DNA from: a virus
IMG/VR virus record: IMGVR_UViG_3300022602_000505
Coordinates: 1 to 20,559 of that record
Length of the DNA stretch: 20,559 bases
Strand: one strand, 5' to 3'
A model generated the notes under the pieces. The model did no database searches. It saw only the letters and a list, made by a program, of their open reading frames with translations, and had not been told where the DNA came from. Positions 869-16,640 of the stretch are shown piece after piece. Position numbers and translations under genes: made by a program. Every line of letters starts with the position of its first letter. Positions within the stretch are counted from its first letter, which is position 1.

Positions 869-1168
869 ATGAGTACCGAAGACGATAAAATTAAAAACTC
901 TACACGCAGGCATAAGGATACTAATGCCATAAACAAGCAGGTAAAAATTGCTAAGTCTAACAATCATTTTGATCAACAAAATATCAAAGAACCGCATAGA
1001 TTGGTTAAACACCACGCAATGGATTGTGGTAATCCTGAATGTTATATGTGCGGTAATCCACGTAAGACACACAAAGATAAACTTACTACACAAGAAAAAA
1101 GATTGTTTCAAGATGTGGAAAAAACTACAGATCGCCACAGTAATGGATTGCCAAACAAGGACGAATAA
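869..1168 (+). CDS. small basic phage protein with CGNPxCxxCGNPRK zinc-knuckle-like motif
   Basis: The protein is 99 residues with a good start (AAGGAATAAT before ATG 869). It is very hydrophilic and basic. Around residues 48-65 it has HHAMDCGNPECYMCGNPRK: Cys53, Cys58 and Cys61 with His48 and His49 close by, a plausible zinc site, and CGNP occurs twice. I recognise the motif as a recurrent one in short phage proteins placed before EKRLFQD, as here (QEKRLFQDVE). Function is unknown; nucleic-acid or protein binding is a guess from the basic charge and the Cys/His cluster. Its stop and the next start share one base (TAATG). Confidence 0.7.
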   Translation: MSTEDDKIKNSTRRHKDTNAINKQVKIAKSNNHFDQQNIKEPHRLVKHHAMDCGNPECYMCGNPRKTHKDKLTTQEKRLFQDVEKTTDRHSNGLPNKDE

Positions 1169-1626
1169 TGGGACTTGATATTAAACGAGAACTAAGAGCA
1201 GTAGATCAAAAAGATTATAACTTTTATTACAATCTCTCCGACGAAGAAAAGAAAGCATTTAGTCCGTATATATTAATGCGTTATACCAGCAACGCACAAA
1301 TCAATGAGAGAGACATACAAGAATGGTATGTTGAAATGACTAACGAACTGGTCAACAAGAATCATTGGCAACTAAGCAAGAACCATAAAGGTCTATTATG
1401 GAAATTATTTGCCGCATCCGGAACTGGTATAAATGTATACCACCCGTATCTTGCCGCTGGTAAAAAAGAAAAAGCCAATAAAATAGAAAAACTTTTATGT
1501 GAATTGAATCCAACAATGAAGATGGATGAAATTAAATTATTGGCATCTATGATGGATAAAAAAGACAAAGAAGAACTGTTTGATAAAATGGGGTTTGACA
1601 AAAAACAAAGGAAAGAATATGAATGA
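1168..1626 (+). CDS. phage protein, possibly the small clamp-loader subunit (gp62-like)
   Basis: The protein is 152 residues, soluble and mostly helical by composition. Features include DEEKKAFSPYILMRY near residues 25-39, a VYHPYLAAGKKEKANKIEKLL segment near 90-110, and an acidic-basic C-terminus (DKKDKEELFDKMGFDKKQRKEYE). The layout, a short helical protein with an 'F.PY.LMR' segment and a later 'G(K)K...K' segment, recalls the small clamp-loader subunits of distant T4-like phages, where gp62 pairs with the gp44 ATPase. No gp44 lies next to it here, so the assignment rests on weak resemblance. An unknown replication-associated protein is the alternative. It starts by TAATG overlap and ends overlapping the next gene. 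Confidence 0.45.
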   Translation: MGLDIKRELRAVDQKDYNFYYNLSDEEKKAFSPYILMRYTSNAQINERDIQEWYVEMTNELVNKNHWQLSKNHKGLLWKLFAASGTGINVYHPYLAAGKKEKANKIEKLLCELNPTMKMDEIKLLASMMDKKDKEELFDKMGFDKKQRKEYE

Positions 1627-1849
1627 ACAGATTTTTGATTTGGCCGAACAGGCAGGATTTTTTACGTTTGGTGATGGTGTTTATGTAAAAGACACCACAG
1701 GTAGTATACACCCAGTAAATGAGTTGATTGAAAACTTTTCTAAACTATTATTAGAAAAATGTGTTGATATTTGTGTCAACGGAAATGCTACACAAATGAC
1801 ATCCAACGGTGCGGCACAGTCTATTAAATTACGTTTTGAAATTGAATGA
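1619..1849 (+). CDS. small conserved phage protein (LAEQAGF family)
   Basis: The start is placed at ATG 1619 (MNEQIFDLAEQAGF...), giving 76 residues. A purine-rich AAAGGAAAG lies just upstream, and the start overlaps the previous stop, whereas the longer frame from 1580 would overlap the previous gene by 47 bases. The N-terminal LAEQAGF and a later helix with LIENFSKLLLEKCVDIC are typical of a short protein seen in many phages (recollection). There are no catalytic motifs. Its stop overlaps the next start as ATGA at 1846-1849, which suggests translational coupling. Confidence 0.7.
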   Translation: MNEQIFDLAEQAGFFTFGDGVYVKDTTGSIHPVNELIENFSKLLLEKCVDICVNGNATQMTSNGAAQSIKLRFEIE

Positions 1850-2538
1850 TATTAGCAGAGCAACCTTACAATTGTGTACATTGTAATAAGAGTTTTATGA
1901 AAGAAAAGACTCTTGTTGCACACATGTGTGAGCGCAAACGTCGAGCATTACAAAAAGATGAAAAACGTGTACAGGCCGGATTTATGGCTTTTAATCGTTT
2001 TTGGCAACTAACTCAAAACGCCAAGAAAAACAAGACATATGACCAATTTTGTGATACAGCCTATTATAATGCGTTTGTAAAATTTGGTAGTTTTTTAAAC
2101 AATGTTAATCCAATTTACCCAGATAAGTTTATCGATTATGTTATCAAAAGTGGCGTTAAATTAGATCACTGGTGTAGGGACGAATTATACGAAACTTACC
2201 TATATGAAACGTTAAAAGTAGAGCCAGTTGAGTCAGCAGTCCAGCGTAGTTTAACCACAATGATGGAATGGGCAGATGAACATAAATCCGTTTTCAATCA
2301 TTATTTTTTATATGTCAGTCTTAATAAAGCGGTACACGATATAAAGAATGGCCATATAAGTCCGTGGATAATTTTAAACTCAAAATCTGGTTATGATATG
2401 GTACAAAAAATGAACGACGAGCAGTTAAACATGATTGCTCCTGCGTTCGATGTAGCATATTGGTCCAAACGATTTAGAGAAGTACCAGCAGATGTTGCTC
2501 TGGTAAAAGAAATCTGCCGAGAAGTGGGCATTGAATAA
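1846..2538 (+). CDS. phage protein with N-terminal CCHC zinc finger
   Basis: The protein is 230 residues. The N-terminus has a compact finger: Cys10-x2-Cys13, then His26 and Cys28 (NCVHCNKSFMKEKTLVAHMCE), close to the C2H2/CCHC layout but with Cys as last ligand. A basic stretch (ERKRRALQKDEKRVQ) follows, then a long, mostly helical body rich in Trp, Tyr and Phe with no enzyme motif I can identify. The combination suggests a DNA- or protein-binding factor acting during infection. The body seems conserved in T4-like marine phages from memory, but I cannot name its role. It is coupled to the previous gene by ATGA, and its stop abuts a strong dyad. Confidence 0.7.
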   Translation: MILAEQPYNCVHCNKSFMKEKTLVAHMCERKRRALQKDEKRVQAGFMAFNRFWQLTQNAKKNKTYDQFCDTAYYNAFVKFGSFLNNVNPIYPDKFIDYVIKSGVKLDHWCRDELYETYLYETLKVEPVESAVQRSLTTMMEWADEHKSVFNHYFLYVSLNKAVHDIKNGHISPWIILNSKSGYDMVQKMNDEQLNMIAPAFDVAYWSKRFREVPADVALVKEICREVGIE

Positions 2539-4328: not shown

Positions 4329-4511
4329 ATGGAAATCAAAGAAGGTAGTAAATGGTCTGGCATCGGCGGAACTACATTTGTAGTAATTCATGTTATTGAC
4401 AAAGATGATCATACTTGGGTACATTACAGAAATGACGGCTCAAAGGAGCCACGAGAATACAGTTGCTACATTGAAAGTTTTTTAGAAAGATTTAGAGAGT
4501 TACCAGAATGA
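4329..4511 (+). CDS. 60-residue phage protein, unknown function
   Basis: A Shine-Dalgarno AAGGTG lies eight bases before ATG 4329. The sequence reads as a single small beta-rich domain (GSKWSG...TTFVVIHVIDKDDHTWVHYRND...YSCYIESFLERFRELPE). The 'WVHY...YSCY.ESF..RFR.LPE' ending is one I associate with short proteins common in phage genomes. There is no signal peptide and no catalytic motif. It is the third gene of the lipoprotein operon and is coupled by ATGA to the cupin. Confidence 0.65.
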   Translation: MEIKEGSKWSGIGGTTFVVIHVIDKDDHTWVHYRNDGSKEPREYSCYIESFLERFRELPE

Positions 4512-4867
4512 CACAATTAAAAGGTCTAGTTCTAAAAGGTTGGGGTTCAGAATACATTTGGGCAACCAATGACAAATACTGTGGAAAGTTTATGCACTTC
4601 AATAACGGTGCTAAATTTAGTATGCACTTCCATAAGGATAAGGAAGAAACTTGGTATATACAATCGGGAAAATTTATTGTACGATGTATTGATACAACCA
4701 ACGCAGAAGTTTACGAAAGAGAGTTGAATGAAGGTGCCGTATGGCATAATAAGCCATGTATGCCTCATCAATTAGAATGCCTCGAAGCAGGCACAGTGAT
4801 AGAAGTCTCTACACCAGATAGCGTAGAAGACAATTACAGAGTTGGTAAAGGCGACAGTCAAAAATAA
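4508..4867 (+). CDS. cupin-fold protein
   Basis: The protein is 119 residues, a complete single-domain cupin. The first cupin motif is MHFHKDKEETWYIQSG, with metal ligands His40, His42 and Glu46 or Glu47. The second is around PHQLECLEAGTVIEVSTPD, with His87 as fourth ligand. It resembles the sugar-phosphate isomerase-type cupins (the C-terminal domain of mannose-6-phosphate isomerase and similar nucleotide-sugar proteins), which often start with a 'K.WG.E' segment as here (KGWGSEYIW). Substrate cannot be read from sequence; sugar metabolism is a family-based guess. The start overlaps the previous stop by ATGA. Confidence 0.75.
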   Translation: MTQLKGLVLKGWGSEYIWATNDKYCGKFMHFNNGAKFSMHFHKDKEETWYIQSGKFIVRCIDTTNAEVYERELNEGAVWHNKPCMPHQLECLEAGTVIEVSTPDSVEDNYRVGKGDSQK

Positions 4868-4874
4868 ACAAAAA

Positions 4875-4928
4875 ATGAGAGACGGCTGGGCTAAACGAAA
4901 GGTGTTAAAAGAACAAAATGGATATTGA
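4875..4928 (+). CDS. possible 17-residue ORF overlapping the next start
   Basis: ATG 4875 opens a short frame (MRDGWAKRKVLKEQNGY) ending at TGA 4926-4928, with ATG 4918 of the next gene lying inside it. Translation of this ORF could feed ribosomes to the downstream start, or the segment could once have been the N-terminus in another frame. No Shine-Dalgarno precedes it, so it may be untranslated. Confidence 0.25.
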   Translation: MRDGWAKRKVLKEQNGY

Positions 4929-5484
4929 TATTGATTTCGCTGATAGAAGCAAGGTCCTTAACATAGTTGAACATGTCCCTGCGACTATTGACGGAATCAA
5001 AAAACACAATACTGGCGCCTATTGTCATAAGATTCCTGTTAATCCCCTAACAGGACAAGCCAGTATTGATTACAAAACTGCCGAATCACGTGGATATTTT
5101 AAAATAGATTTTCTTAATGTTAGTATGTATCAAGGTGTTAAAAATGAAGAACATCTTATACAACTGATGTCTAGTGAACCATTATGGGATTTATTGGAAC
5201 AGGATGATTTTACAAATTTACTATTTCATGTCAACGGACATGGCGGTATTTTAAGAGAAATGAAACCACAATCTGTAGAACAACTGGCGGCAGTATTGGC
5301 AATAATAAGGCCTGCCAAAAGGCACTTAATAGGTAAGGATTGGGACGAAGTAATGGCAGAAGTTTGGGTTAAACCTACTAATGATGATTACTATTTTAAG
5401 AAAAGTCACGCACATGCGTATGCGATGGCTATTGTGGTACAGATGAACCTTATCTGCGAAGGTGTTAGTTACGAACAGTCCTAG
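4918..5484 (+). CDS. miniature DNA polymerase III alpha-like protein
   Basis: The protein is 188 residues against about 1,160 for a bacterial alpha subunit. It strings together the palm and finger signatures of C-family polymerases. DIDIDF at residues 2-7, with R10 and VLNIVEHV after it, matches the PDFDVDF...R..VIEHV motif holding catalytic Asp401 and Asp403 of E. coli. FKIDFL at 61-66 matches KFDFLGL with Asp555 and Lys553. LLFHVNGHGGILREMKPQSV then LAAVLAIIRP (102-132) matches the GVFQLES...P..FEDLIAL.AL.RPG block. YYFKKSHAHAYAM (158-170) matches FNKSHAAAYAL. The PHP, beta-binding, OB and tau-binding parts are all absent. It could be a minimal polymerase, a decoy for the host replisome, or a repurposed fold. 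Its 3' end overlaps the convergent gene by 20 bases. Confidence 0.75.
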   Translation: MDIDIDFADRSKVLNIVEHVPATIDGIKKHNTGAYCHKIPVNPLTGQASIDYKTAESRGYFKIDFLNVSMYQGVKNEEHLIQLMSSEPLWDLLEQDDFTNLLFHVNGHGGILREMKPQSVEQLAAVLAIIRPAKRHLIGKDWDEVMAEVWVKPTNDDYYFKKSHAHAYAMAIVVQMNLICEGVSYEQS

Positions 5485-5848
5485 GATTTCTAACTAACTG
5501 TATTGATTTACGTTTGATACGTTTTTCTGCTATTTCTCTAAGATTAACACTTGGACCAAAGATAAGTTCTGCATCTTTGGCATTAAATGTTTTAATAGAA
5601 TATTTAAATAAACTCATTTCTTTTTTAAGAAAGATATTAATTGGTATTTTTCTATTGCTTTCCCACCACCAAACTTCCCCCATTTCTAAGAATAAAGTAC
5701 GGTGATCATCATCTTTAATAACACCTATATCGTAGATGCTAGCAATATATGAATCAAAATTGATAACGATACCAACATATTCTACATCATTTGATTTGAT
5801 ACAGGAAATAAAGGGGTAATTTGATTGGAACTGATTTGGTACTGTCAT
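5465..5848 (-). CDS. conserved phage protein, unknown function
   Basis: The protein is 127 residues from ATG 5848 (MTVPNQFQSNYPFI...). The frame could be extended to 5929, but that would run into the divergent structural gene and bypass the late promoter at 5884-5891. Features are a short beta-rich N-terminal half, then GEVWWWESNRKIPINIFLKKE and a C-terminus NLREIAEKRIKRKSIQLV that is strongly basic. I recall the WWWESNR...IPINIFLK block from T4-like phage proteins, without a known role. It faces the structural gene with 17 bases between start codons. Confidence 0.65.
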   Translation of the reverse strand: MTVPNQFQSNYPFISCIKSNDVEYVGIVINFDSYIASIYDIGVIKDDDHRTLFLEMGEVWWWESNRKIPINIFLKKEMSLFKYSIKTFNAKDAELIFGPSVNLREIAEKRIKRKSIQLVRNPRTVRN

Positions 5849-5852
5849 TATT

Positions 5853-5860
5853 AATAAATA
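5853..5860 (+). promoter_or_regulatory. T4-like late promoter motif AATAAATA
   Basis: AATAAATA differs from the T4 late consensus TATAAATA at the first base. In T4 the element covers -13 to -6, which would put transcription start at 5866, the A of the structural gene's ATG. The mRNA would then have little or no leader, in keeping with the absence of a Shine-Dalgarno there. Confidence 0.5.
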
Positions 5861-5865
5861 TTGAT

Positions 5866-6909
5866 ATGCAAAATTTACCAATCTATTTATACCAAAATAA
5901 TTTCGATGTAATATTAGATTTGGATCCAACCATCCAAGGAGTTAACCGAGTTATGTATCAACGCGATCTAACAATACAAAAGGGAATTAAGAACAAAATA
6001 CGTGTTACTTTTAAAAATAGTGATCAAAAGATACTTCCTATATCAAGCACAGCAACCTATGTATTTTCCATGTTTGATGCCATTAGTCAGCGTTTGTTGA
6101 TACAAAAACAAATTACCGTATTAGATGATACTATAACAACTCAAACCAATGTAGATCAAAGTAACATTAGTAATGTACTTTCATTCAGTGATACTTCTGG
6201 ATTTTCAATAGGACAAACTGTAACAGGGTTTGGTATTCATGCTAATTCTGTTATAACAGGGATTTCAACAGGAACTATAACTTTAAATAATTTTACAATA
6301 TTTCCAGTATCTTCGTCTACAGTTCTTACAGTTGGTACGTTAAATTTACGTGGTGTAGGTCAACTTACATTTACAGAAAGCGATACTATTGGATTAGATG
6401 ATAGTAGTTATACTTACAGTATAACCTACAAAGATCCTACAGATGGTACATATTTACCGGCATACTCTAACACATATTATGGTATAAATGGAACACTATA
6501 CCTAACTAGCGATATATGGCCAACACTTCAACCTAGTTTTGAAGTAGACGTATTTCAGCAAAGTTTTAACTTATCTGTGCCTGAATATGAATTTAAAAGC
6601 AGACCAATTTATGCTTATCCAGAATATAAAAGTAATACCGGTTTACACACTGTTGCGTTTTATATGACCAACTTTATTGGTACCGTATATCTACAGGTTA
6701 CTATGGATAACCAACCAAGCTATTTAGATAATTTTTCTACAATTGAAACCAGAACATACAACGGATTTTCTGGAATTGATTATATAAATTTCAACGGTAT
6801 CTATTCATATATTAACGTCATGTATGTTCCTGCTAAGGGTCCCGGTGATTCAGTAAACAACAACCCCGCTTACTACGGTTCATTTGACAAACTCTTATAT
6901 AGATGTTAA
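5866..6909 (+). CDS. virion structural protein (baseplate/tail type)
   Basis: The protein is 347 residues from ATG 5866 (MQNLPIYLYQNNFDVILDLD...). The TTG-initiated extension at 5821 is ignored because it would run through the late promoter. The N-terminal 90 residues (RDLTIQKGIKNKIRVTFKNSDQKILPI) have the look of a baseplate or tail-fibre connector beta domain. The rest is Thr/Ser/Asn/Tyr-rich and beta-predicted, with TITTQTNVDQSN and GISTGTITLNN stretches typical of phage surface proteins, and a C-terminal GTVYLQVTMDNQPSYLDNF segment. Late expression fits the AATAAATA motif directly upstream. The exact virion position cannot be given. Confidence 0.7.
   Translation: MQNLPIYLYQNNFDVILDLDPTIQGVNRVMYQRDLTIQKGIKNKIRVTFKNSDQKILPISSTATYVFSMFDAISQRLLIQKQITVLDDTITTQTNVDQSNISNVLSFSDTSGFSIGQTVTGFGIHANSVITGISTGTITLNNFTIFPVSSSTVLTVGTLNLRGVGQLTFTESDTIGLDDSSYTYSITYKDPTDGTYLPAYSNTYYGINGTLYLTSDIWPTLQPSFEVDVFQQSFNLSVPEYEFKSRPIYAYPEYKSNTGLHTVAFYMTNFIGTVYLQVTMDNQPSYLDNFSTIETRTYNGFSGIDYINFNGIYSYINVMYVPAKGPGDSVNNNPAYYGSFDKLLYRC
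5884..5891 (-). promoter_or_regulatory. perfect T4-like late promoter TATAAATA on the minus strand
   Basis: The bottom strand reads TATAAATA, an exact late consensus, inside the first codons of the structural gene. The predicted start near 5878 gives a leader of about 30 bases before ATG 5848. It overlaps the divergent late promoter unit on the other strand. Confidence 0.55.
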
Positions 6910-6918
6910 ACTATATGT

Positions 6919-7923
6919 ATGAACGACATACAGTCAGCACTATTAGCTCTCTTACCTCCAAAACGTAAGGCTACCCCTAGCGGGTGGACAAGTTTTGATG
7001 CTGTATGTTGTCACCACAGAAGCGAATCTAGAGATGATAGGAAACGCGGTGGTATATTACTAGGCAATGAAGGCGGATTCCAGTACCATTGTTTTAACTG
7101 TAATTTCAAAGCAGGATGGACTCCGGGCAAACTGTTAAGTAATAATACCAAACAATTGTTCCGTTGGCTTGGAATGAATGAAACTGACATTTCTAAATTG
7201 GGACTGTATACTCTTAAACTCAAAGAGGATCAACCTAAACCAGAAAAAGTTTTAAACTTTGAACTCAAAGAAGTACCTTTACCAGAGGGTGCCCTAACAC
7301 TTACAGAGTGGGCCAATTTTGGGTTACCTGTAGAACATCAGCCCAAGTTGATTGCTGTATATCAGTACCTATTAAATAGAGGGTTTGATCCTGTTAACGA
7401 AACATTTTATTGGACACCTGCTCCTGGTTGGATCGACAGAGTTATTATTCCATTCTATCACGATGGCAAAATTGTAGGGCATACAGGGCGTAAAATTACA
7501 GAAGGCAAACCAAAATATCTTACAGACAGTCAGCCTGGTTATGTGTTTAACATTGATCGTCAACACTACAATAAACAATTTGTTGTTGTGGTAGAAGGAC
7601 AATTTGATGCGTTGGCTATAGATGGTGTTGGTATTATGACCAATGAGCCCAGCGATGTTCAGGTAGCCAGAATCAATGCTTTAGGTAAAAAAGTAATTGC
7701 CGTACCCGATCGAGATCGTCCTGGTGCTAAAATGATCAAAGCGGCCCTGGTTAATAAATGGTCAGTAAGTATGCCACCATGGGGAGATGATGTCAAGGAT
7801 GTAGCAGATACTTGTCTTAAATATGGACGTCTATATACTTTGACCACAATCTTACACTACTGTGAAGACAACGAGATAAAAATACAACTACTGAAGAAAA
7901 AACTAGAGAACCTACATGAATAA
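6919..7923 (+). CDS. DNA primase, T4 gp61-like
   Basis: The protein is 334 residues, near the 342 of T4 gp61. The N-terminal zinc-binding domain has Cys30/Cys31 and His32/His33 paired with Cys58-x2-Cys61 (CCHH...HCFNC). The TOPRIM catalytic core follows: VVVVEGQFDALA with catalytic Glu226, and VIAVPDRDRPG with Asp264 and Asp266. It makes the short RNA primers for lagging-strand synthesis and is expected to work in a primosome with the helicase encoded next. The start lacks a good Shine-Dalgarno and lies nine bases after the structural gene. The helicase ATG overlaps its end by eight bases. Confidence 0.88.
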   Translation: MNDIQSALLALLPPKRKATPSGWTSFDAVCCHHRSESRDDRKRGGILLGNEGGFQYHCFNCNFKAGWTPGKLLSNNTKQLFRWLGMNETDISKLGLYTLKLKEDQPKPEKVLNFELKEVPLPEGALTLTEWANFGLPVEHQPKLIAVYQYLLNRGFDPVNETFYWTPAPGWIDRVIIPFYHDGKIVGHTGRKITEGKPKYLTDSQPGYVFNIDRQHYNKQFVVVVEGQFDALAIDGVGIMTNEPSDVQVARINALGKKVIAVPDRDRPGAKMIKAALVNKWSVSMPPWGDDVKDVADTCLKYGRLYTLTTILHYCEDNEIKIQLLKKKLENLHE

Positions 7924-9367
7924 ACCAAATTACGATTACGAAATGCAAAAACTTTATCTCGAAATGTTTTTAAGCGATGCTGAAACATTTGTGAGATGCC
8001 AAAATATTTTTGATCCATTAAACTTTGATCAACGATTACAAGATTCGGCAGAGTTTATCACAAAATATGTTGATGAATATAAAGTCATGCCTGAAGCAAA
8101 TATTGTCAATGCCTCGTGCCGTAGTGAGTTTAATCCTGCTCCATTACCAAGAGAAAACTATGATTGGTTAATGGACGAGTTTGAAAACTTCAGTAGACAC
8201 AAAGGACTCGAACGTGCGATTTTACAATCAGCAGACTTATTAGAAGCAGGTGATTATGGTCCAGTTGAAAAATTAATCAAGGATGCTATACAGATATCTT
8301 TGAACAAGGACATGGGCACAGATTACTTTGAAGATCCTAGAGCGAGGTTGAGCAAACTCAAAGACAGTAATGGACAAATCAGTACCGGATGGCCCAGTGT
8401 TGATAGGAAACTGTATGGCGGATTTAATCGAGGTGAGTTGAACATTTTCTGTGCGGCATCTGGTGGTGGTAAGAGTTTGTTTTTGGCCAATTTGGGTGTT
8501 AACTGGGCATTGGCAGGACTCAATGTAATCTATCTAACATTTGAGTTGAGTGAAGAACTTGTCAGTATGCGACTAGACAGTATGGTTACTGGAATTGGTA
8601 CTAGGGAGATTTTTAAGAATATTGATGATGTTGAATTAAAAGTTCGAATGATGAGTAAGAAGTCAGGACACATGCAAATCAAGTATATGCCCAGTGGAAA
8701 AAATTGTAACGATATTCGTGCGTATTTGAAGGAATATCAAGTCAAAACAGGACAAAAAGCCGACGTAATTTTAATCGATTACTTGGATTTAATGATGCCT
8801 TTAAGTGTCAAAGTAAGTCCCAGCGATTTGTTTATCAAAGACAAGTATGTGTCAGAAGAGATTAGAAATCTGGCAATGGAAACACAATGTATTACTGTAA
8901 CAGCCAGTCAATTGAATCGTAGTGCGGTGGAAGAAATTGAATTTGATCACAGTCATATTTCGGGTGGTTTGAGTAAGATTATGACAGCAGATAATGTTAT
9001 CGGTATCTTCACAAGTCGTGCTATGAAGGAACGTGGTCGTTATCAAATACAGTTTATGAAGACACGTAGTAGTTCCGGTGTTGGACAAAAAGTTGATTTG
9101 GAATTTAATGTTGATACATTACGTATCACGGATTTAGGTGAAGAGGAAGAAAGTAATTTTAGCCAACAACGTGTTTCTAGTAATACCACAAACCTTGTAA
9201 ATTCTTTTAAACGTACAAGTACAGTATCAACTACAACAGATGCGGAAACTGGAGAAATTAGAGATGTTGATCCTACGATAGGGATCAATATTAAAGCAAT
9301 TAAAGCAAAATCTGCGGCACCGGGTATTCGCAGTATGTTAGCAACTATTAATCCTGAAAAAGATTAA
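7916..9367 (+). CDS. replicative DNA helicase, T4 gp41-like (DnaB family)
   Basis: The protein is 483 residues, close to T4 gp41 (475). The N-terminal helical part (1-150) is followed by a RecA-type core. ISTGWPSVDRKLYGGFNRGELNIF leads into Walker A AASGGGKS at 180-187. Catalytic Glu210 sits in YLTFELSEE, Walker B VILIDYLD at 284-291, and ITVTASQLNRS and ISGGLSKIMTADNVIGIF carry the later DnaB motifs. It is a 5'-to-3' hexameric helicase that unwinds the fork and stimulates the primase encoded just upstream, with which it is probably cotranslated. The last 70 residues are Ser/Thr-rich and low in complexity. Its TAA shares TTAA with the stop of the convergent gene. Confidence 0.9.
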   Translation: MNKPNYDYEMQKLYLEMFLSDAETFVRCQNIFDPLNFDQRLQDSAEFITKYVDEYKVMPEANIVNASCRSEFNPAPLPRENYDWLMDEFENFSRHKGLERAILQSADLLEAGDYGPVEKLIKDAIQISLNKDMGTDYFEDPRARLSKLKDSNGQISTGWPSVDRKLYGGFNRGELNIFCAASGGGKSLFLANLGVNWALAGLNVIYLTFELSEELVSMRLDSMVTGIGTREIFKNIDDVELKVRMMSKKSGHMQIKYMPSGKNCNDIRAYLKEYQVKTGQKADVILIDYLDLMMPLSVKVSPSDLFIKDKYVSEEIRNLAMETQCITVTASQLNRSAVEEIEFDHSHISGGLSKIMTADNVIGIFTSRAMKERGRYQIQFMKTRSSSGVGQKVDLEFNVDTLRITDLGEEEESNFSQQRVSSNTTNLVNSFKRTSTVSTTTDAETGEIRDVDPTIGINIKAIKAKSAAPGIRSMLATINPEKD

Positions 9368-9927
9368 AACCACTGGTTAACTTGTTCTTTGGCGCTGGTC
9401 TCTAAAGTATTGTACCACTGTTCCATACCTTCAGATTTGAAAACAGTTTCTATATTTGCTGGTGCCATTTCCCAACGGTGAGCAACTTCGGATCCTGTTT
9501 TAGCAGATAATTGTACGTCTAGTGTACCGGGTTCCCACATCCAATATCCTACACAACTTCTATAATATTCAGGACCTTCGCCTTGGCTAATGGCGGCCAA
9601 AATGGATACATCATTAGTAATACTAATTTCAGAAGTAAGTCGTATTGTATTAAGCCCGGTCCAATCTGGACTATGTAGTACATGTACCTTACCAGTTTCC
9701 ATATTACCGCCACGATACATAGGATCTTCATTTACATTTTGTATACCTAGTCCTTCCATAACATTACCTAAAGTAAGATCATTTAGTCTAGCATTAATTT
9801 GTAATCCTACACTACCGTGATCGCTATGGTTTATAATTAATATAACACTACCATAAAGCCCGTCTTTGGGATTATTTGGGTTAGCGGCAATCAGTTGACC
9901 TTGATAAGGGGTATTGGTTTCAATCAT
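9364..9927 (-). CDS. YqgE/AlgH-family protein (DUF179)
   Basis: The protein is 187 residues, the usual length for this family. Diagnostic blocks are all present and in order: YQGQLIAANPN, LYGSVILIINHSDHGSVGLQIN (family: SVI.I..H...GA.GLVIN), MYRGGNMETGKVHVLHS (family: Y.GGPV....VLH) and YYRSCVGYWMWEPGTLDVQL (family: ..GYAGW..GQLE.E). Bacterial homologues are widespread; AlgH of Pseudomonas was linked to alginate regulation, but the molecular function is not settled. In a phage it may mimic or replace the host copy. It starts divergently from the nucleotidyltransferase with 32 bases between, and an ATTAAATA late-like motif lies seven bases before ATG. Confidence 0.85.
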   Translation of the reverse strand: MIETNTPYQGQLIAANPNNPKDGLYGSVILIINHSDHGSVGLQINARLNDLTLGNVMEGLGIQNVNEDPMYRGGNMETGKVHVLHSPDWTGLNTIRLTSEISITNDVSILAAISQGEGPEYYRSCVGYWMWEPGTLDVQLSAKTGSEVAHRWEMAPANIETVFKSEGMEQWYNTLETSAKEQVNQWF

Positions 9928-11191: not shown

Positions 11192-11929
11192 ATGAACCTT
11201 ATACTATATACATTATTGGTAACACACATTACCATTGTTTCTGTAACACTTTATCTACATCGTGGCCAAGCACACCGCGGAGTAATATTCCATCCAACTA
11301 TAGCACATTTTTTTCGTTTTTGGTTATGGCTTACTACCGGAATGGTAACAAAGCAATGGGTAGCAATACATCGAAAACATCACAGATATAGTGACGTAGA
11401 AGGAGATCCACATAGTCCACATGTGTTTGGAATTCGTAAACTATTAACGCAGGGAGCATTGCTTTATAGTCGTGCCGCTCAAGATAAAGACATGGTTGAA
11501 AAGTATGGGGTTGGAACACCCGATGATTGGATTGAACGTAACCTTTATAACAAATATAATTTTCTAGGAATTACTTTATTATTTCTCGTAAATTTACTTT
11601 GTTTTTCCTGGTGGGGCTTAGTAGTATGGGCGGTACAAATGTTATGGATTCCATTCTGGGCTGCCGGAGTTATCAACGGTCTAGGACACTGGTGGGGTTA
11701 TCGCAATGGTGAGTCTAAGGACAAATCACGCAACATCAGTCCTTGGGGTATTATTATAGGCGGCGAAGAACTACATAATAACCATCATCTAAGTCCAGCA
11801 AGTGTTCAACTAAGCCGTCGTTGGTTTGAGTTTGATATCGGTTGGATGTATATAACTATACTTAAAACACTAAAATTAGCAACCGTTACTGATCGATCAA
11901 ACACAGTTCTTGAAACACCTCAGGGTTAG
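11192..11929 (+). CDS. fatty-acid (acyl-CoA/acyl-lipid) desaturase
   Basis: The protein is 245 residues, somewhat short for the family. It has the full set of iron-binding histidines of delta-9 type membrane desaturases: HRGQAH (His23, His28), HRKHH (His60, His63, His64) and HNNHH (His195, His198, His199), plus His166 in NGLGHWWGYRN. Hydrophobic segments at about 1-22, 37-52 and 125-160 are the expected membrane spans. It introduces a double bond into host acyl chains using O2 and a host electron donor. As a phage auxiliary metabolic gene it could adjust membrane fluidity. The 3' end overlaps the convergent gene by 44 bases. Confidence 0.88.
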   Translation: MNLILYTLLVTHITIVSVTLYLHRGQAHRGVIFHPTIAHFFRFWLWLTTGMVTKQWVAIHRKHHRYSDVEGDPHSPHVFGIRKLLTQGALLYSRAAQDKDMVEKYGVGTPDDWIERNLYNKYNFLGITLLFLVNLLCFSWWGLVVWAVQMLWIPFWAAGVINGLGHWWGYRNGESKDKSRNISPWGIIIGGEELHNNHHLSPASVQLSRRWFEFDIGWMYITILKTLKLATVTDRSNTVLETPQG

Positions 11930-12732: not shown

Positions 12733-15700
12733 TTAAGAAAAGTTAGATATTGTTGTCACAGGAAGATTACTGCCATTCCACCCAACAGCAACAAATGATC
12801 CTGTCGAAGTTGCTATAATAGCGTTTAAACCTCCACCTGTGATTCCTGATATTGTCTGAGGTGGTTTAACCCAGTTTGTACCATCAAACGACACAGCATA
12901 ATCAGCTACGCCCGAAGGATAAGTATAACCCACAGCCGCTAATACTCCTGAAAACGCTGTTGTGTAAGTAACAGACTGCATGTACGATGAAGTTGTACTA
13001 CCACCCATTGGCGCAGGCACACTCCAAGTGGTGCCATTGGTGCTGGTAGAAACCAAAGGATATCCTGGAACACCACTGACATCTTTCCATCCCACTGCTA
13101 CCCACAGATTCAATCCTGATGCCCACACCACACTTTGCATAACTGTGGCAGTGCTGGTGCCGGCCATTACAGCAGGAGCTGACCAAGTGGTGCCATTGCT
13201 ACTTACAGAATATATTGGTAGTCCTGTTAAGTTACTGCCAACTGATACCCAAGAGCCTGCGGTATTAACAGCCACAGCGTTCATTAAAGAAACTGTTGTT
13301 GTTCCGCCCATAGTGGCTACACTTGACCAAATATATCCATTACTGCTGTATGAATATGTGGCATAGTTATTGCTGTTGAATCCCACTGCCACAAACAAAT
13401 TTTGTGTCTGCGACCAAGCAATTGCAAGCATAGGACTGTTAGACAAGGCTTGAATATTGAGTGGTATACTCCAAGTGATTCCGTCTGTGCTGGCCGAGTA
13501 CATGGGATATGAGGTAGTGGGATTATATCCCACCGACACAAACAAATTCAAAGCAGGACTATAAACCATGCCCGTGGGAGACATATTACCAAATGTAACA
13601 GGCGAGCTCCAAACATTTCCATTGTTGGACCATGTGCTATAACCAGCAAAGCTAATGGGACTGTAGCCCACTGCGGCCCAAATGCCGGAAGTACTCACGG
13701 CCACACCTGTTAGTTCTACTGAGGTGTTAGTTGACACCACAGTGGCTGTGGTAAAAGTAGGACGTATGTTTGGAGTAAAGCTGATGATATTACTGACAGG
13801 ACTAGTTTCTAAAATATTGAATGCCTGCATGGTAGCAGTATAAGTAACTCCATTGGTTAGTCCAAACAGTCCAACGTTGGGATTGGTCGTAGAACCTGCC
13901 AACACTGTTGAGGTTGTAAATCCCACAGCCGTAGAAGTAATAACATAGCGCGAAATAGGAAGACCCATGGTATAGGGTGGCAATGAGAAAAATATACTGG
14001 CAGAAGTATTAAGTCCATAGGCCGCAATTAAAATTGGAGAACTTAAATTTTGATCATCCAAGGCCCATCCTTGCCCAATTGTGATGCCAGACCCGATCAC
14101 AAATGCTCCGCACGAAACATTGATCACATAAGTGGTGGTGTTGATGTTGTTTTCTGCTGTTACCGCAATATCTATCACATTGTTGCCTATTGTGATAGGT
14201 AGCGAGCCAGAAGGTGTGCCCGACACAACAGCAACACCGTTGACAGTGATTGAAGTCAGCGCAGAGGCTGCAGTGGGTGTAACTGTGATTGAAGACACCC
14301 CAGAACTCAAGTTGACAGAGTAGTTGGTCACCGAAGGATTAAAAAATGGAATCAGCAGTCCTTGCGACACAGTCAAATTGTTCAACTGACTGATAGAGGT
14401 TCCTGCTTGCAACAAGGATATGATTGCTTGACCATTTGGAGAACCTAGTCCTGTACAGGCATCCCAGCCAGTGCTGGCTCCATAGCCCACAGGTGTAAGA
14501 TCTGCATTGTTGCCCGAAGTTACATCGTACAGCACTGAAGGATTTCGATACAGCGCAGGTGTGATAAATCCTGCCCTTATATTGGTCAGTTGGTTTACTC
14601 CAGCAATTAGTCCAGCCCATAAAGGAGCTGCCGCCGATGTGCCACCCACGGGTGTAGGAACCACTGTGCTAGGAGTGCCAACAAAGTAGGTGTAGCCCGA
14701 AGCAGGGTCAGCATTGGCTGCCACGTCGGGTATGCCCCGGCCAGTCAGTGTGGCTGAAGTTTGTGAACTGTTGCCATAAGCCTCAAAGGCCTGATAAGTG
14801 GCTGTAGAGTATGAGAGGCCTGCTTGCCAAGTGGGCAGACTCTCATATTGGCTAATGCCACCACCTGATCCATACCCAGGATATACTCCTCCCCAGACTG
14901 TTTCCGAGTAAATGGTGCCTGTGGTATTGAGCTGTAGCCGGGTTCCGCCCACAGCCAAAACCCAAGGACTGGTAGCTGGATAACTGGCCTGTACCGTGTA
15001 GTAACTGTTGTTGTAGACTCCTCCTGCTCCGGTATCGCCTGTGGCCACAACCAGTGTAATACCCAGAGCCACACTCTGTACCAGTACAGAATCCACATAG
15101 GCCACAGTACTTGTGGTCCAATACCAACTGTTTTCTCCAGCACCATAGCTGATGCTGATCACTGAGGGATTATTCGTTGTATCGTGTATGGCCGCGTTGA
15201 TGGGATCTGCCCAACTGGGTCCTGCTCCTGTACTGGTAGTGATGGGTCCACCAAAATAGGTCACAATGGTAGCACTGTTGGCCACCGACCCAGCCACAAA
15301 CAGATCCAGCATGACTTCAGACGAGTAGCCATCATAGTAATTGCTGGCAGTACTATTGACCTGTCCATCTACCAGTACATAACTGTTGGCAGGAGGAGGC
15401 AGGCCAATGGCCGCAAACGAGTCCGTGACATTCTGCTGATTGTAGCCGCCACCATACTGTACAATGCCTATGGTCTGCCCAGCTCCTGTGGCAGTGGTGG
15501 GTATTGCATAAGCACGAGCCGCTTGTACAGGAGTTATAGGTGCTAGAGCTACAGCAGTTCCTGTACCAAAAGCCACAGAATCTGAGACTTTAGTACCACG
15601 CTCATAAGGTGGTGCGGTTGACAAATTGGCTATGTGATCAATCACCAACTCTACCAAATCAGGTACTGAAACCTCCCCTGTCCAAGTTCTAACACGAGTT

Positions 15701-16131
15701 CCATTGATTTCAGCCCATACTAACCGTATGCCTAATAACTGATTAACAGCGGCAGCAGAACCAGAAACACGCAGAGTAGCACTGGCGGAATGCGCAGAAT
15801 CTACCGATATGCCCGCTGACTCTAACCAAACGCTAACCAACTCAATATCAGAATCTAACGCCGCAAACTGTGAACAAAAATCCTGATAACTCAAATAACT
15901 GACTTCACGCTCAATAACACGTTGTGCAAACTCCTCTAAACTGGCAGGTCTACGTAGAGCGATAACAAAAGCAACAGATTCTTCCCCTAGTAAGGGAGTG
16001 GTAACAGTATCTAGAGGTAGACTTAGAGCAACAGGTTGAAACATGAATAGGTCCGTAATACTGTATTTATTGATGGCGGTTTGGCCCGAACCCGACTCGC
16101 GATAGCGCGGCGCCAGCGGTTGCAAAGCCAT
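12733..16131 (-). CDS. sedolisin (peptidase S53) with cadherin-like, Fn3-like and beta-propeller domains
   Basis: The protein is 1,132 residues in the longest reading. Residues 50-175 form a pro-kumamolisin activation domain (VAFVIALRRPASLEEFAQ...SASATLRVSGSAAAVNQLLGI). Residues 200-575 are an intact S53 catalytic domain: Glu272 and Asp276 in SSEVMLDLF, oxyanion Asp366 in VATGDTG, catalytic Ser499 in GGTSAAAP, and calcium-site segments YDVTSGNN and GWDACTGLGSPNG. Residues 580-673 resemble a cadherin-like beta-sandwich, and 690-790 an Fn3-like region. From about 810 on, seven AVG strands alternate with six NGxxW/DGxxW strands, as in a six-blade propeller closed by the last strand. Family members are acid serine peptidases. 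Start is uncertain: ATG 16044 (29 codons later) follows an AATAAATA motif and would omit an unusually GC-rich N-terminus. Confidence 0.85.
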   Translation of the reverse strand: MALQPLAPRYRESGSGQTAINKYSITDLFMFQPVALSLPLDTVTTPLLGEESVAFVIALRRPASLEEFAQRVIEREVSYLSYQDFCSQFAALDSDIELVSVWLESAGISVDSAHSASATLRVSGSAAAVNQLLGIRLVWAEINGTRVRTWTGEVSVPDLVELVIDHIANLSTAPPYERGTKVSDSVAFGTGTAVALAPITPVQAARAYAIPTTATGAGQTIGIVQYGGGYNQQNVTDSFAAIGLPPPANSYVLVDGQVNSTASNYYDGYSSEVMLDLFVAGSVANSATIVTYFGGPITTSTGAGPSWADPINAAIHDTTNNPSVISISYGAGENSWYWTTSTVAYVDSVLVQSVALGITLVVATGDTGAGGVYNNSYYTVQASYPATSPWVLAVGGTRLQLNTTGTIYSETVWGGVYPGYGSGGGISQYESLPTWQAGLSYSTATYQAFEAYGNSSQTSATLTGRGIPDVAANADPASGYTYFVGTPSTVVPTPVGGTSAAAPLWAGLIAGVNQLTNIRAGFITPALYRNPSVLYDVTSGNNADLTPVGYGASTGWDACTGLGSPNGQAIISLLQAGTSISQLNNLTVSQGLLIPFFNPSVTNYSVNLSSGVSSITVTPTAASALTSITVNGVAVVSGTPSGSLPITIGNNVIDIAVTAENNINTTTYVINVSCGAFVIGSGITIGQGWALDDQNLSSPILIAAYGLNTSASIFFSLPPYTMGLPISRYVITSTAVGFTTSTVLAGSTTNPNVGLFGLTNGVTYTATMQAFNILETSPVSNIISFTPNIRPTFTTATVVSTNTSVELTGVAVSTSGIWAAVGYSPISFAGYSTWSNNGNVWSSPVTFGNMSPTGMVYSPALNLFVSVGYNPTTSYPMYSASTDGITWSIPLNIQALSNSPMLAIAWSQTQNLFVAVGFNSNNYATYSYSSNGYIWSSVATMGGTTTVSLMNAVAVNTAGSWVSVGSNLTGLPIYSVSSNGTTWSAPAVMAGTSTATVMQSVVWASGLNLWVAVGWKDVSGVPGYPLVSTSTNGTTWSVPAPMGGSTTSSYMQSVTYTTAFSGVLAAVGYTYPSGVADYAVSFDGTNWVKPPQTISGITGGGLNAIIATSTGSFVAVGWNGSNLPVTTISNFS
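16064..16071 (-). promoter_or_regulatory. late-promoter-like AATAAATA inside the 5' end of the sedolisin gene
   Basis: The bottom strand reads AATAAATA followed by C, as at two other late-type sites. The predicted start near 16058 would give a 14-base leader before ATG 16044. If used, the protein begins at MFQPVALSLPL. If not, the motif is only part of the coding sequence (INKYS). Confidence 0.35.
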
Positions 16132-16156: not shown

Positions 16157-16310
16157 CAGAATGAATCGTACAGTGAGTCTTACAATGAATCTTACTATAC
16201 ACATAATGAATATCTACAGTGAATCGTACAGTATACACTACAGTGAATCGTACAGTATACACTACAGTGAATCTTACAGTATACGCTACAGTGAGTTCTA
16301 GACTGCCGCC
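16157..16310. repeat. 12-bp hemi-repeat array (24-bp iterons)
   Basis: About twelve consecutive 12-base units. Type A is TACAGTGAATCK and type B is TACAGTATACRC. The core 16215-16286 is three perfect-phase A-B pairs (24-base direct repeats, two of them nearly identical), with more degenerate A units on the left and a decayed end on the right. All TACAGT elements point the same way. The array lies just upstream of the sedolisin gene, ending 26 bases from ATG 16131. Iterons for a DNA-binding protein, at a promoter or origin, are the likeliest reading. Confidence 0.8.
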
Positions 16311-16580
16311 GAACTCTACACACAGTAGTGAGCCGAGACCTATATGCAACTCTAAAAAAATAGCGCAAAAAAATTTTAGAATCCAGAATCGGGGACCCGA
16401 GACCGGTATATGCAGGCTAAAAAATTGCTGTGCAATAAAAAGCAGATCTGGAGATCTAGATCTAGGGGTTTTTAATCTAACTCGGGTTTTTTAAGGTGGA
16501 GGGATTTTAGAAGAATTTAGGAAGAATTTTAGAACTTTAGGCAAGCTAGTTGTTAAAAAACAACAAGGATTTAGTTGTAT
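16311..16580. other. non-coding stretch with a 12-bp AGATCT palindrome
   Basis: No credible gene on either strand. AGATCTAGATCT at 16452-16463 is a perfect palindrome, with another AGATCT at 16444-16449. Two short T-runs follow on the + strand (GGGGTTTTT, CGGGTTTTTT), and GTTGTT-AAAA-AACAAC forms a weak dyad near 16550-16565. The purine-rich stretch around 16495-16540 has A/T-G bias only. I see no tRNA and no convincing promoter. Confidence 0.5.
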
Positions 16581-16640
16581 AGACCAGGCCACCCCTCAGT
16601 ACAGACCAGGCCACCCCTCAGTACAGACCAGGGCACCCCC
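16581..16640. repeat. 22-bp tandem direct repeat, two copies plus a partial third
   Basis: Unit AGACCAGGCCACCCCTCAGT plus AC occurs at 16581-16602 and 16603-16624 with no differences. A third begins at 16625 but diverges after AGACCAGG. It is GC-rich, unlike the AT-rich stretch to its left. It sits downstream of the last early gene (minus strand), in the untranslated 3' region. Confidence 0.8.

Follow-up and report, generated by a model that had tools for sequence, protein, structure and literature searches.

Results

A short viral ORF encodes the metal-binding part of a C-family polymerase palm

We wanted to understand what a viral open reading frame (ORF) of 188 amino acids, in which the three catalytic aspartates of bacterial DNA polymerase III α are recognizable, might be: an enzyme in its own right, a mimic of the host replicase, a decaying remnant, or one chain of a larger enzyme. 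The ORF (referred to below as mini) is located in a 20,559-bp stretch of viral DNA, IMG/VR record IMGVR_UViG_3300022602_000505, which was analyzed as a whole and is termed the window. The gene and its diagnostic residues are the following.

4918..5484 (+), mini gene, C-terminal (Mg2+/DNA-binding) half of a split minimal DNA polymerase III α, PHROG 11778, 188 aa
4921..4935 (+), DIDID motif, in which D2 and D4 correspond to DnaE D401 and D403; invariant in 62/62 homologues, with the split point just upstream
5101..5109 (+), K-I-D (K62 and D64), corresponding to DnaE K553 and D555; D64 is the third catalytic Asp
5227..5229 (+), H104, corresponding to DnaE Q610 and Mycobacterium tuberculosis DnaE1 Gln638 in the nascent base-pair pocket; Gln in Atu_ph07
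5308..5313 (+), R131-P132, corresponding to DnaE R639-P640 and M. tuberculosis DnaE1 Arg667-Pro668; pocket residue
5395..5409 (+), FKKSH, in which F160, K162, and H164 correspond to DnaE F756, K758, and H760; H164 corresponds to M. tuberculosis His787

The ATG start codon directly precedes DIDID, and an in-frame stop is found three codons upstream of it; thus, no N-terminal part of the protein has been overlooked. A search of PHROGs matched residues 1-181 to PHROG 11778, annotated as ‘DNA polymerase’ (8e-67), and Pfam returned a subthreshold fingers match and nothing else. The single mini sequence retrieved only a match with E = 0.63 from the PDB, and detection of C-family structures there needed a profile; weak PDB matches of the mini-family profile search (a tRNA hydroxylase and others) were set aside as chance. 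Alignment to DnaE of Escherichia coli MG1655 paired D2, D4, D6, K62, and D64 with D401, D403, D405, K553, and D555, as the initial annotation had proposed for D401, D403, K553, and D555, and, in the distal part of the protein, H104, R131, P132, F160, K162, and H164 with Q610, R639, P640, F756, K758, and H760. In M. tuberculosis DnaE1, nargenicin sits where the incoming nucleotide and the template base would be and touches Gln638, Arg667, and His787 (PMC8922275). Because H104, R131, and H164 of mini align with these contact residues, the pocket has been retained as well as the metal site.

The AlphaFold model of mini (pLDDT 86) matched C-family polymerases almost exclusively, at ranks 1-14 in Foldseek and ranks 1-15 in VIA, with the best Z score (9.3) given by alignment to residues 462-841 of Thermus aquaticus (Taq) α. 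The predicted fold thus agrees with the polymerase assignment made originally from motifs, but it is not independent of the sequence because AlphaFold can recall solved C-family structures. Compared with bacterial DnaE and PolC, mini shares the metal-binding residues of the palm, the equivalent of K553, the RP and FxKSH motifs, the order of these motifs, and the predicted fold, but it lacks PHP, the thumb, most of the fingers, the tandem HhH/clamp-binding region, the OB domain, and the C-terminal region. In the alignment, nothing in mini corresponds to PHP, to DnaE residues 419-494 (taken here as the thumb region) or 515-527, to most of residues 648-751 of the fingers, R709 and R710 among them, or to anything beyond approximately residue 784. 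As mini has 188 of the 1160 amino acids of DnaE, 84% of the length is absent, in keeping with the original estimate of about 85%.

The mini family is under purifying selection

Such a loss of length is what a decaying remnant of a full-length α gene would show. However, a scan of viral contigs revealed 175 that encode relatives of mini, and tblastn revealed 63 phage records with the gene, the length of which is nearly constant across relatives. The protein in the window is 42-55% identical to those of RaK2, Phosso, Cassandra, and Atu_ph07, and 71% identical to that of a 331-kb metagenomic phage (G003). Across 62 distinct aligned sequences, which included RaK2, Phosso, Cassandra, and Atu_ph07, residues D2, D4, D6, K62, D64, R131, P132, K134, K161, and H164 did not vary, and H104 was kept in 61 of the 62, with Gln in its place in Atu_ph07. 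The distant members SCTP-2, Vibrio 2.275.O, XacN1, CM1, and Slicko01 all retain the Asp residues, K62, the RP motif, and the His. Further, dN/dS was 0.05-0.15 for pairs in which dS was computable. We conclude that the mini gene family is under purifying selection and is not decaying. The conservation found refutes decay of a full-length α, and the earlier argument against simple decay from the retained catalytic set is borne out.

The remainder of the palm is encoded by a second gene

A search of complete relatives with PF07733 brought up another small protein, PHROG 11127 (∼170-180 aa), in RaK2, Phosso, Cassandra, and G003. We refer to it as the partner; mini and the partner are gp411 and gp373 in RaK2 and 0017 and 0087 in Cassandra. 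The partner retains G139, G141, R142, G143, and S144 (the GS motif) in 18/18 sequences, and its C-terminal pattern resembles S..Y.LD..EF. Its profile matched residues 275/285-392 of E. coli α (E ∼4e-5), and all of its PDB matches were C-family α subunits. When mini and the partner were modeled as separate chains, residues 81-176 of the partner aligned to 303-459 of the same Taq α entry (Z 6.5), and the best structural match of the partner was PolC (Z 10.1); residues 1 to ∼75 were assigned no counterpart. Because the partner ends at approximately DnaE residue 392 (ERFL) and mini begins at approximately 400 (D401-x-D403), the two halves abut without overlap, and their models likewise occupy adjoining, non-overlapping segments of Taq α. 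The break falls within the single palm domain, which is therefore divided over two chains, with the GS motif on the separate partner, unlike in DnaE and PolC.

We fetched 80 of the 175 related loci for comparison and found the two halves fused in none of them (0/80); in every case, DIDID was near the start of the frame, and no GS motif was present upstream. The partner was also not seen among the ORFs scanned in the window, which is a 20,559-bp fragment. One contig that carries a mini gene (L088, IMGVR_UViG_3300032300_000346, 67.6 kb; 34037-34678, −) also encodes a 567-aa PHP-less, single-chain C-family polymerase resembling PHROG 405/11165. This protein has a C-family palm with a GS motif, but, unlike mini, it has the GS motif followed by PDIDLDF in one chain and retains some of the thumb-region insert along with the fingers motif WRRAFAKK. 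We rejected it as a fusion of the two halves and regard it as a separate, fuller C-family enzyme.

Both halves co-occur in phages with a family B polymerase

Profiles detected both mini and the partner in 11/11 complete or large genomes, i.e. eight long phage records of 288-490 kb, G003, G011, and the 141-kb Slicko01, and the two genes were at distant loci in the complete relatives checked. The best 60 partner records in a tblastn search were all from phages that carry mini, if Serratia phage BF is taken as a carrier by its listed RefSeq twin. The exceptions, in which tblastn found mini without a partner match, were two Alishewanella phages, for which the profile found the partner in the one phage tested (Slicko01), and one Klebsiella record of 109.5 kb, the relatives of which are ∼346 kb. 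Among shorter metagenomic contigs, some had mini and others the partner, a pattern that would be expected of genes lying far apart. Slicko01 (OQ508956) is a non-jumbo Alishewanella phage in which the halves are only ∼11 kb apart; its partner is highly divergent and annotated as hypothetical.

These results bear on the proposal in the initial annotation that mini is a self-contained minimal nucleotidyl transferase or primer extender. It has in its favor that the catalytic Asp triad is in one small chain and that the gene adjoins those for a primase and a helicase. However, the GS motif and the first helices of the same palm are on the partner, which is encoded elsewhere in the same genomes and co-occurs in every complete genome tested, and the break is inside one domain; activity without the partner is thus very unlikely. 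We conclude that mini is one chain of a split enzyme and not a stand-alone mini-polymerase.

All 11 complete or large relatives also encode a family B polymerase (PF00136), and eight of them encode a DnaQ-like exonuclease. The earlier remark that the window has no ordinary polymerase is correct, but it reflects nothing more than the fragmentary state of the record (20,559 bp). Neither a full-length α nor a third or fourth split piece (thumb, fingers, or HhH) was found in the same 11 genomes, the latter by searches with PHROG 405, PF17657 (fingers), and PF14579 (HHH_6). Because these searches detected no third fragment, and because neither R709/R710 and the thumb nor any of the C-terminal domains that hold DNA are represented in the two halves, the catalytic competence of the pair is not assured. 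The two proteins could instead form a non-catalytic, palm-like accessory that binds primer-template DNA, the family B polymerase, the clamp loader, or the primase without polymerizing, a reading with which the absence of these DNA-binding parts and the presence of a family B replicase would agree. We consider it rather unlikely, given that the three Asp residues, the Lys, the pocket Arg and His, and the GS motif of the partner are kept in very divergent phages, whereas from a scaffold one would expect some losses at these positions.

Mini and the partner are located among replication genes

The neighbors of mini in the window are listed below.

1168..1626 (+), PHROG 11758, function unknown, upstream neighbor in 74/80 loci
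1846..2538 (+), PHROG 11058, function unknown, N-terminal C2H2-like finger, upstream neighbor in 78/80 loci
5465..5929 (−), PHROG 11637, function unknown, convergent and directly downstream of mini; same place in 78/80 loci and in RaK2, Phosso, Cassandra, and Atu_ph07
5821..6909 (+), virion structural protein-like gene, PHROG 14467, conserved neighbor; the true start may be inside the ORF
6919..7923 (+), DNA primase, PHROG 47, conserved replication-module neighbor
7916..9367 (+), DnaB-like replicative helicase, PHROG 19, conserved replication-module neighbor

The order in which mini is followed by PHROG 11637, the virion structural gene, the primase, and the helicase is common to the window, RaK2, Phosso, Cassandra, Atu_ph07, and most of the 80 loci. 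The partner gene is ∼0.7-1.6 kb upstream of a gp44-type clamp loader in RaK2, Cassandra, SCTP-2, XacN1, and Atu_ph07, and, in Slicko01, mini itself is just downstream of the clamp loader. With mini beside the primase and helicase and the partner beside the clamp loader, both genes are replication-associated. The conserved position in a phage replication module also argues against the suggestion, made initially, that mini is a dominant-negative mimic of host DNA polymerase III α. Although mini descends from the polymerase family to which the host replicase belongs, the parts of α that bind the clamp, τ, and ε, as well as the OB part, are absent and the catalytic residues are invariant, which makes this role highly improbable. 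The PHROG 11637 gene overlaps mini by 20 bp and is nearly as conserved as mini, and it is possible that its product is a functional partner of mini.

Several other genes in the window vary among related loci. Directly upstream of mini is a cupin gene (4508-4867; PHROG 7851, ‘cysteine dioxygenase’) found in only 13/80 loci. An AlgH/YqgE-like DUF179 gene (9364-9927, −; PF02622, 2.8e-23), convergent to the helicase, has homologues in 30/80, and a fatty acid desaturase (11192-11929; PF00487, 7.9e-15), an unusual metabolic gene for a phage, in only 2/80. An ORF at 12733-16131 (−), absent from related loci, encodes a 1132-aa protein with pro-kumamolisin activation and cadherin-like domains that looks like a secreted or virion-associated serine peptidase. 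The GC content increases along the window, being ∼0.36 over 1-12.7 kb and ∼0.46-0.50 over 13-19 kb, and the 80 related loci contain no homologue of any of the six ORFs tested beyond 11.9 kb; a chimeric contig or a block acquired by transfer may be the reason. Near the GC shift is a 24-bp tandem array (16214-16294, 3.4 copies, 96% match), and a 22-bp array is found at 16577-16639. Genes at the right end include GP88 (PHROG 1617) and an AAA ATPase (PHROG 1250).

Discussion

We consider it probable that mini and its PHROG 11127 partner are the two chains of a minimal C-family DNA polymerase, likely of low processivity, that is present beside a family B replicase. Homology, the conservation of residues, purifying selection, the complementarity of the halves, their co-occurrence, and synteny are established here, whereas the formation of a heterodimer, its catalytic activity, and its biological role are inferred. 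The partner would contribute the beginning of the palm, which carries the nucleotide-binding GS motif (G-x-G-R-G-S), and mini would contribute the metal-binding strands (D2, D4, and D64, with K62) and inner fingers predicted to hold the nascent base pair (H/Q104, R131, F160, K162, and H164). Docking of the chains where the palm is interrupted (DnaE residues ∼392 to ∼400) would rebuild a pol-β-like palm able to perform two-metal nucleotidyl transfer. Because the thumb, most of the fingers, PHP, HhH, the clamp-binding region, and OB are absent, such an enzyme should be distributive. It probably works with the adjoining primase and helicase and with the clamp loader encoded near the partner, and its role may be in primer extension, in lagging-strand synthesis or gap filling, or in repair. 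More tentatively, the two ∼180-aa proteins might constitute the smallest known C-family polymerase, which would borrow its hold on DNA from the primase-helicase or the clamp loader and act as an initiator that hands primers to the family B replicase, by analogy with the hand-off between Pol α and Pol δ; we regard this as possible but doubtful.

The split enzyme was published in 2021, and the gene in the window is a metagenomic member of that kind. Iyer et al. (PMC7824862), who inferred the same split independently, described a minimal Pol III α in two pieces for RaK2/Atu_ph07-like jumbo phages (“group 2.2”). Their system has the same family (PHROG 11778 with PHROG 11127) and the same type of phage (RaK2, Atu_ph07, PA5oct, GAP32, and CBB) and, as observed here in the complete or large relatives, the same division into two genes at distant loci and a family B polymerase alongside; the window member is metagenomic, with nothing essential different. 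A truncated, 172-aa α (CBB_328) had been reported for CBB (PMC5259590), and, for Atu_ph07, gp316 was entered as α (PMC6102473); our analysis shows gp316 to be the partner half. Our literature search found no work on the split enzyme beyond that of Iyer et al., nor an experimental study of it. What the present analysis adds is the exact break point, the loss of the thumb and of R709/R710, the mapping of the pocket residues, the co-occurrence counts, and a 141-kb non-jumbo carrier.

As the system is present in cultivated phages (RaK2, PA5oct, Atu_ph07, and 121Q), it is directly testable. If the pair is active, it would be a naturally occurring minimal core for the bacterial replicase family and would reveal which parts catalysis can spare, and these phages would be running a bacterial-type and an archaeo-eukaryotic-type DNA polymerase together.
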